From the IMG/VR virus record IMGVR_UViG_3300042519_004024, positions 62,001 through 126,000 of that record: a stretch of DNA of 64,000 nt. The stretch is one strand, 5' to 3'. Below the pieces are notes generated by a model that saw only the letters and a program-made list of their open reading frames with translations, was not told where the DNA came from and searched no databases. Position numbers and translations under genes: made by a program. This DNA comes from a virus. Positions 10,015-24,540 of the stretch are shown here, piece after piece. Every line of letters starts with the position of its first letter. Position 1 is the stretch's first letter.

Positions 10015-10089
10015 TGGTGAGGGAATGGAATCGAACCATCGGCACAAGAGTTTTCTGTCTCCTTGCTCTACCTACTGAGCTACCGCACC
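10015..10089 (-). tRNA. tRNA-like element with 8-nt anticodon loop
   Basis: Acceptor GGTGCGG/CCTCACC (one mismatch), D-arm GCTC…GAGC and T-arm GATGG/CCATT are present. The stem AGGAG/CTCTT encloses ACAGAAAA, which has no U33, so no anticodon can be assigned. Confidence 0.45.
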
Positions 10090-23307: not shown

Positions 23308-23338
23308 CAAAGATAAGCAAAAAAAATTAATGCACAAA
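23308..23338 (-). promoter_or_regulatory. Host-type promoter, gene at 22887-23303
   Basis: Minus strand TTTG (23335-23338), 19 nt, TATCTTTG (23308-23315), overlapping the ncRNA terminator. Confidence 0.78.
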
Positions 23339-23368
23339 AAAATGGATACAAATATTATCTGCATCCAT
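23335..23368 (-). terminator. Terminator of the large ncRNA
   Basis: ATGGATGC/GTATCCAT stem (one G·U) at 23342-23368 followed by T7-8 on the minus strand. Confidence 0.8.
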
Positions 23369-24341
23369 CAATTTTTTTACTTATAAGATTTTAAACCTAA
23401 AAAAGAACGCTGAGATTACACGTTTATGTGAGAATCTTTTGAAGGATTATTTTTTCCCTTCGTATCCACCATCTTTTGAATGGTACTTCTCAGTGACGAT
23501 TATTTAGGTGAATCACTCCTTGAGGTATCAATTACTCTCTCATTACTCAACTCTCTTCGAGGATGCCTCCCCAACTAATCCTTGCGGGATTAGAGGTTTT
23601 TGGTAAGAATGTAGTTCAACTTGCGGTATCACTACGCAACGAACGGCTCGTTACTATGTAGTCACCTTTCATTGACACCTGACGGACACTTTTGCTTTAT
23701 AGTTCTTAATTTTACTTAATTAGCTGTAAAGTTTTTTGTGTCGTGGATTGATCGAAGTAGTGGTCCGTCTTTCAGCTTCGTTATCTTTTGAACAACGAAA
23801 TACCAAACTACTCCGTGAAATGTCCCCATTTCCATATTTCAAGATTACTTCGAGATTTAACCTTTGGTAAGGTTCAATCAAGGACAATGTCAGCACCACC
23901 TGTTTGTTGTCATACCTTTCGGTTTTAAGTATCCTATCATAATGGAACACGCAATAATAAAATCGGATAATCTTATTTTTTGCACTATTCCTACGGGTTA
24001 TTCCTATTGGTGTTCCCACCTCAAACTGACAACCCACATTGCCAGTTCGTCTAACCACTTTCCCTACAGCGTTGCCCTCGGTACTAAAGGTTATACGGTA
24101 TCCCGCTTGTGTACTCGATCTCGACAAGTCCGAAGACTCACCAAGACGCAAACCCAACACACTTAAGGGTTCACTTTATCCTACTTTCGTAGTTTATTTT
24201 AATGGACCATACACGGCCCAATGACTTAATTTAGTTTCACACTTAAAGAAAGGGAGGTGTTAATTCTCTTCTTTTATTTTGTGACGACTGTTTCAGTCGG
24301 ATTTAGATTTTCAAAGAACGTTTCAGGACTTTTCCTGATTT
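23335..24341 (-). ncRNA. Large structured non-coding RNA, about 1 kb
   Basis: No credible protein is encoded, composition is visibly richer in G+C than the surrounding genes, and the minus strand is full of stable hairpins: TCAGGA-AAAG-TCCTGA (24323-24338), CGACTG-AAA-CAGTCG (24285-24299), a 10-bp stem with G·U pairs (24022-24049), AACCTT-ACCA-AAGGTT (23859-23874) and CTAATCC-CGCAA-GGATTAG (23575-23593). A host-type promoter places the start at about 24341 and an intrinsic terminator ends it near 23335. Size, structure and a tRNA-rich phage context resemble the GOLLD and ROOL classes of giant phage-associated RNAs; I cannot confirm membership. Confidence 0.75.
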
Positions 24342-24347
24342 GTTTTA

Positions 24348-24379
24348 CAAAGTTAAGTCTTTTTTTTTGATTAGACAAG
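24348..24379 (-). promoter_or_regulatory. Host-type promoter of the large ncRNA
   Basis: Minus strand TTG (24376-24378), 20 nt, TAACTTTG (24348-24355). The first RNA hairpin begins about 10 nt downstream. Confidence 0.7.
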
Positions 24380-24396: not shown

Positions 24397-24540
24397 TTAA
24401 AATTTTTCTACGTACACTTTTTCGGTTCCGTATTTAATCGACATTAAATGTGCAAATTCCAAATTTGGTGTTACCACTTTTTGTCCTTTGTCGTTAACGT
24501 AGGAGTAAATTTCATTTTCTTTAATTGTTTCTTCTGACAT
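24397..24540 (-). CDS. 47-residue unknown protein
   Basis: ATG 24540 opens MSEETIKENEIYSYVNDKG… and the stop lies 18 nt before the ncRNA promoter. Codon use is normal for the window. Not recognised. Confidence 0.6.
   Translation of the reverse strand: MSEETIKENEIYSYVNDKGQKVVTPNLEFAHLMSIKYGTEKVYVEKF

Follow-up and report, generated by a model that had tools for sequence, protein, structure and literature searches.

What does a stretch of about 1 kb encode that carries a promoter, a terminator and no credible gene in a tRNA-rich phage? The stretch in question lies at 24379-23335 on the minus strand of the window, i.e. the 64 kb of DNA analysed here from a virus record of 213,924 bases (all features described below are located on this strand). 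It forms one transcription unit, in which TTG, 20 nt, TAACTTTG, a leader, a densely structured region of ~800 nt and a terminator made of a 13-bp hairpin and a T run follow each other. In an earlier note on this DNA, it had been described as an autonomous structured non-coding RNA, likened to the giant phage RNAs GOLLD and ROOL with the class left undecided, and a search with the Rfam models of both was suggested. In the Rfam covariance-model scan, the GOLLD model RF02032 (gathering score 150 bits) matched 23815-23407 over its complete length (model positions 1-416) with 329.1 bits and E = 1.5e-93, while no match was obtained for ROOL or OLE; GOLLD was the sole Rfam match in the scanned stretch at E <= 1. 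Since RF02032 alone matches, and does so over the complete model, the class is settled as GOLLD, neither ROOL nor new, and membership of the ~1-kb RNA in this known family is virtually certain. Such membership is ordinary in itself, and possible novelty may lie in the leader. That the RNA is ROOL or represents a new giant class is next to impossible: no Rfam family gave a match for its 5' half, as would be expected of a new class, but the 3' half matches the whole GOLLD model, ROOL is silent even at E = 1 and the 5' half travels together with the GOLLD 3' half in homologues. A first scan of genome contigs with a GOLLD motif gave no match, and no GOLLD was found in 41 genomes of one family, a result that does not show its absence there because the controls were silent in the same run, too.

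With a motif taken from the 3' domain, 74 loci were retrieved from IMG/VR, and homologues of the 5' half were present in all loci (L001-L076) except one, a fragment ending before this half. For the 38 phage homologues kept after removal of near-duplicates (66-92% identity), RNAalifold yielded a consensus structure of 242 pairs, and covariation was assessed by a background-corrected G-test (E <= 0.05) with 30 tree-simulated alignments without pairing as the null. Significant covariation was obtained for 65 of the 242 pairs, compared with a mean of 0.07 and a maximum of 2 in the null alignments; the alignment used for the test had also supplied the consensus structure, and the seed motif at ~23555-23535 is invariant by construction. 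Covariation in homologues had been proposed as a test, and together with the unit's own promoter and terminator these data confirm the autonomous ~1-kb structured RNA. Conservation at the protein level in one frame, which had been named as evidence against such an RNA, was not seen; covariation in both halves was found instead. Among the reading frames, the longest (146 aa, 24160-23720) was ruled out as a gene, in agreement with the claim that no credible gene is present: it does not stay open in 29 of 36 homologues, where as many as 14 in-frame stops and several indels that shift the frame were seen. That this or another frame encodes a protein has almost no probability: the window and six relatives have the 146-aa frame open, but it is closed in the remaining homologues, frameshifting indels are common and base-pair covariation runs across the same region. 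The RNA is non-coding, and both of its domains are conserved.

The two domains correspond to the architecture known for GOLLD, namely a conserved 3' domain with covarying helices and a separate, less conserved 5' domain. The 3' domain (23815-23407) is the part covered by positions 1-416 of the Rfam model, and 33 of its 119 pairs covary significantly. The 5' domain (24218-23816, 403 nt) lies beyond the Rfam model and has significant covariation in 32 of 123 pairs; it agrees in size and position with the cap domain of GOLLD env-38. It is homologous throughout this lineage, and covariance models of its parts also match the huge phages LR745206 and LR756502 as well as the Acinetobacter phage Herod, in which only its start matches (43.6 bits). 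No convincing match to the 5' domain was obtained in Weiss13, Javan636 or DSS3_MAL1. As Rfam does not model the 5' cap domain, the set of 38 sequences provides a source of covariation for it. The least conserved stretch between the domains is a variable A-rich linker (23752-23700) with 67% identity, compared with 82-85% on either side, and a length of 32-55 nt in the homologues; its counterpart in env-38 is a disordered loop in the cage interior. Two helices that are missing from the Rfam consensus line are supported by compensatory change. The first is a pseudoknot between GACGGAC (23769-23763) and GUCCGUC (23687-23681) which covaries over the whole helix, its key pair 23766-23684 being canonical in 38/38 sequences as G-C or A-U (p = 7e-6). 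The second is a long-range helix between GUGAC (23665-23661) and GUCAC (23497-23493), with the pair 23662-23496 canonical in 38/38 and present as three pair types (p = 6e-6). A helix proposed by RNAalifold at 23744-23738/23689-23682 was dropped, as the pseudoknot is better supported.

GOLLD env-38 is a D7 14-mer with caps formed by the 5' domains, rings formed by the 3' domains and a disordered linker inside the cage (PMC12286853). The loops that would correspond to its intermolecular contacts were assigned from the text of that study and not from coordinates. In bridge B7, the dinucleotide GC of J13/15 (23695-23694) would kiss the loop L20 (CGCAA, 23625-23621) of another copy, and 23694-23624 showed the strongest canonical covariation outside the nested structure (p = 1e-6). 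The two sites are GC/GC in 28 and GG/CC in 10 sequences, a two-sided switch that keeps them complementary in 38/38. Bridge B8 requires that the dinucleotide of L21a pairs with itself in a second copy (PMC12286853). In the corresponding loop (CGCAA, 23586-23582) the dinucleotide is GC in 29, CG in 8 and AU in 1 of the homologues, and thus self-complementary in 38/38. Because the assembly contacts are conserved, copies of the GOLLD RNA from this phage are likely to assemble into a cage as well. We found no point in favour of a GOLLD remnant that has decayed and lost its function, and consider it very improbable, given that promoter, terminator, kissing loops and well-supported helices are all intact.

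The host-type promoter, TTG-N20-TAACTTTG, is present as it had been described. Its -33 element TTG (24378-24376) is invariant in the 36 homologues with a 5' end, and in the -7 element TAACTTTG (24355-24348), located 20 nt past TTG, TA and TTT are invariant in 36/36 and the final G is found in 35/36. The -7 element fits the sigma-A consensus TAnnTTTG, the flavobacterial form (PMC9723704), and the promoter is of the Bacteroidota type. From the types of promoter and boxA, we infer that Bacteroidota are the host of the phage; two phage proteins from the window had no named relatives informative about the host. Two neighbouring genes are mentioned here as separate observations. A sigma-70 family factor with Pfam regions 1.2, 2 and 4 is encoded by the phage itself (46525-47340, minus), and an ORF of 47 aa without Pfam family lies just upstream of the GOLLD promoter (24397-24540, minus), with similar ORFs at about the same place (29 loci with a match).

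The leader begins with the two 6-bp hairpins that had been noticed at the opening of the RNA. The first, TCAGGA-AAAG-TCCTGA (24338-24323), is boxB-like by position only; 19 of 23 distinct leaders form a perfect stem of 5 bp or more (mean 5.0, compared with 2.8 in shuffles), and compensatory versions such as ATCGGA/TCCGAT and CTTGG/CCAAG occur. The second, CGACTG-AAA-CAGTCG (24299-24285), is restricted to close relatives. Between them lies the boxA-like element GTTCTTTGA (24319-24311), which is exact in 35/36 homologues. The box is 99% identical, compared with 74% for the leader before it and 51% after it. Among non-redundant leaders that precede a 16S start in Bacteroidota, 62 of 107 contain an element of the form GTTC[AT]TTGA, where 1.55 were expected, and the other 45 lack it by exact match; GTTCTTTGA itself occurs in 22/107 (0.4 expected). 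The Legionella boxA, GTTCTTTAAAA, is one base off GTTCTTTGA (PMC7862264). In E. coli rRNA operons, the promoter is closely followed by a boxB hairpin, boxA and boxC in this order, of which boxA is necessary and sufficient for a complex of Nus factors, S10, S4 and SuhB (PMC10250234), which is also thought to aid folding of the looped-out RNA (PMC4807359). The GOLLD leader has the order of an rrn-type leader, i.e. promoter, hairpin, boxA and untranslated RNA, and its box is identical to the rRNA boxA of the host phylum.

The box is also found elsewhere in these phages. In the GOLLD phage loci 128 copies were counted, where 40 shuffled motifs gave 18.6 on average; 69 of the copies come from GOLLD leaders, which are related among themselves. 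A position 8-70 nt after a -7 element was observed for 87/128 copies, against 1.8%, and 16 other copies are located at most 500 nt before a tRNA. Within the window, the tRNA array at 10089 has a promoter (TATCTTTG), a hairpin and the boxA variant GTTCATTGA (10297-10289) in the same order as the GOLLD leader. The leader of this array (10350-10095) has its hairpin formed by GGGGGTAGGA...TCCTACTCCC, and the ~190 nt without annotation between GTTCATTGA and the first tRNA may contain another structured RNA. A further GTTCTTTGA (CATATTGG, 18221-18213) is positioned between tRNA-Thr and tRNA-Gln. A third copy (GTTCTTTGACATATTGG, 10833-10825) was seen right behind a terminator-like hairpin, and precedes the promoter-like TTG-N-TATCTTTG of a small gene. 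Outside the window, tRNA-Met, a hairpin, AGTTCTTTGAAATATTG and GOLLD occur in succession in LR745206 (634 kb). In DSS3_MAL1, ACGCTCTTTGA, which resembles a proteobacterial boxA, is located ahead of an array of tRNA, GOLLD and tmRNA (L204:91). The same sequence is present 261 nt before the 16S start on a Roseobacteraceae plasmid, whereas the 16S leaders of Paracoccus and Ensifer, two other alphaproteobacterial ones, did not match the pattern used. DSS3_MAL1, whose name points to Ruegeria DSS-3 as its host, is a possible independent case of boxA combined with GOLLD.

Alternatively, the box might be no boxA but belong to the structure or the processing of GOLLD, as it is invariant and, in nearly all homologues, lies 58-114 nt upstream of the GOLLD core. 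This is unlikely, since the box is also present in host 16S leaders and, in these phages, before tRNAs at places that have no GOLLD, the distance to the core varies while the intervening sequence drifts, and the GOLLDs of other hosts do not have it. A universal link between boxA and GOLLD was ruled out: no boxA-like box was found beside GOLLD in Herod, Weiss13 or Javan636, and because of this absence the box is seen as a trait of this phage lineage and not of GOLLD as such. As a boxA, GTTCTTTGA would with good probability recruit Nus factors. In the literature searched, no link between boxA and GOLLD was found; the two were mentioned together in four cases, all of them plant papers as judged by title, and a host-rRNA-type boxA leader on GOLLD may be new.

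The description of the phage as rich in tRNAs was correct. ARAGORN called 24 tRNAs in the window, all on the minus strand like GOLLD and the nearest at a distance of 3.2 kb, so that the location of GOLLD in phages or prophages near tRNAs applies to this virus record; expression that rises at lysis is a further trait of the family. A stretch at 18120-18030 (minus), called neither by ARAGORN nor by Rfam, resembles a tRNA-Ser on visual inspection (loop CTTGAAA, anticodon TGA), and other stretches between the tRNAs of the window may hold further unusual ones. The 3' end of the unit is marked by the predicted intrinsic terminator, in which a T run comes after a 13-bp hairpin (23369-23341). In 19 IMG/VR loci, near-duplicates among them, tRNA-Met(CAT) starts 10-19 nt past the GOLLD end, and in other loci tRNA-Met is located upstream of boxA. 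In Herod, tRNA-Asp lies 10 nt downstream of GOLLD, and a similarly close spacing is found in LR756502 and Javan636. Because tRNAs sit so close downstream, the GOLLD 3' end in relatives can probably come from tRNA processing. Two peculiar arrangements were observed in addition. In DSS3_MAL1, a tRNA-Arg lies inside the GOLLD match (L204:1570-2507), with the tmRNA gene just after it. Upstream of GOLLD in LR756502, a tRNA-like sequence with an insertion (L201:1096-1213), which otherwise resembles the tRNA 10 nt past GOLLD, is possibly an intron-containing or decayed copy. Neither the boxA element nor the tRNA-Met adjacency in relatives was part of the earlier note.

In our proposal, GOLLD is probably made with the host Nus/rRNA antitermination machinery and then folds into a cage, the phage being one that infects Bacteroidota. 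Transcription by the host RNA polymerase and its housekeeping sigma factor would start near 24345-24340, and the nascent leader would expose the hairpin and the host-type boxA, to which NusB/S10 and the remaining rRNA antitermination complex would be recruited. Through this recruitment the long untranslated RNA would escape Rho termination and receive help in folding. It would then form the 5' cap domain and the 3' ring domain, and kissing loops would join the copies into a closed cage with the A-rich linker inside. The RNA would owe its 3' end to the intrinsic terminator in this phage and, in relatives, probably to processing of the tRNA. More generally, we lean towards the idea that Bacteroidota phages, huge ones included, drive GOLLD and tRNA arrays from leaders resembling those of rRNA operons, with the host antitermination and folding machinery giving rise to a cage larger than the ribosome and with DSS3_MAL1 as an independent case. 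That the cage serves, late in infection, to handle or protect tRNAs of the phage or other components of translation is a tentative idea and rather doubtful. The proposed tie to rRNA antitermination suggests that GOLLD is needed in quantity and at full length, and it points to partners related to translation. The boxA leader, the repeated adjacency of tRNA-Met and the covariation of the 5' domain are testable additions to GOLLD; synthesis tied to rRNA antitermination and a 3' end tied to tRNA-Met or a terminator offer two concrete handles.

Several known systems can be compared with this unit. ROOL is also a phage-associated RNA nanocage near tRNAs, but differs in sequence and fold, and its covariance model has no match here. 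The boxA leaders of rRNA operons and CRISPR arrays (PMC10250234, PMC7862264) are alike in promoter, hairpin, boxA and long untranslated RNA, whereas here the boxA is carried by a phage RNA and binding of Nus factors is predicted. Herod and its relatives have the 3' domain and the start of the 5' domain in common with this phage, but their GOLLD is embedded in a tRNA array and no boxA was found beside it. In the uncultured huge phages LR745206 and LR756502 (642 kb), both sequence and covariance model reveal the 5' domain. The boxA of the GOLLD leader described here recurs in LR745206, which differs in the tRNA-Met placed directly 5' of its leader, while LR756502 differs in the tRNA located 10 nt 3' of its GOLLD. 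GOLLD env-38 (RF02032, PMC12286853) shares the whole 3' model, the two-domain layout, the variable linker and the contacts B7 and B8, and is also alike in size and in its phage and tRNA context. Its oligomer was seen by cryo-EM, whereas the phage GOLLD analysed here, known from sequence alone, has a boxA-type leader and a Bacteroidota promoter and, ending in a terminator of its own and lacking a neighbouring tRNA, constitutes a single autonomous unit.
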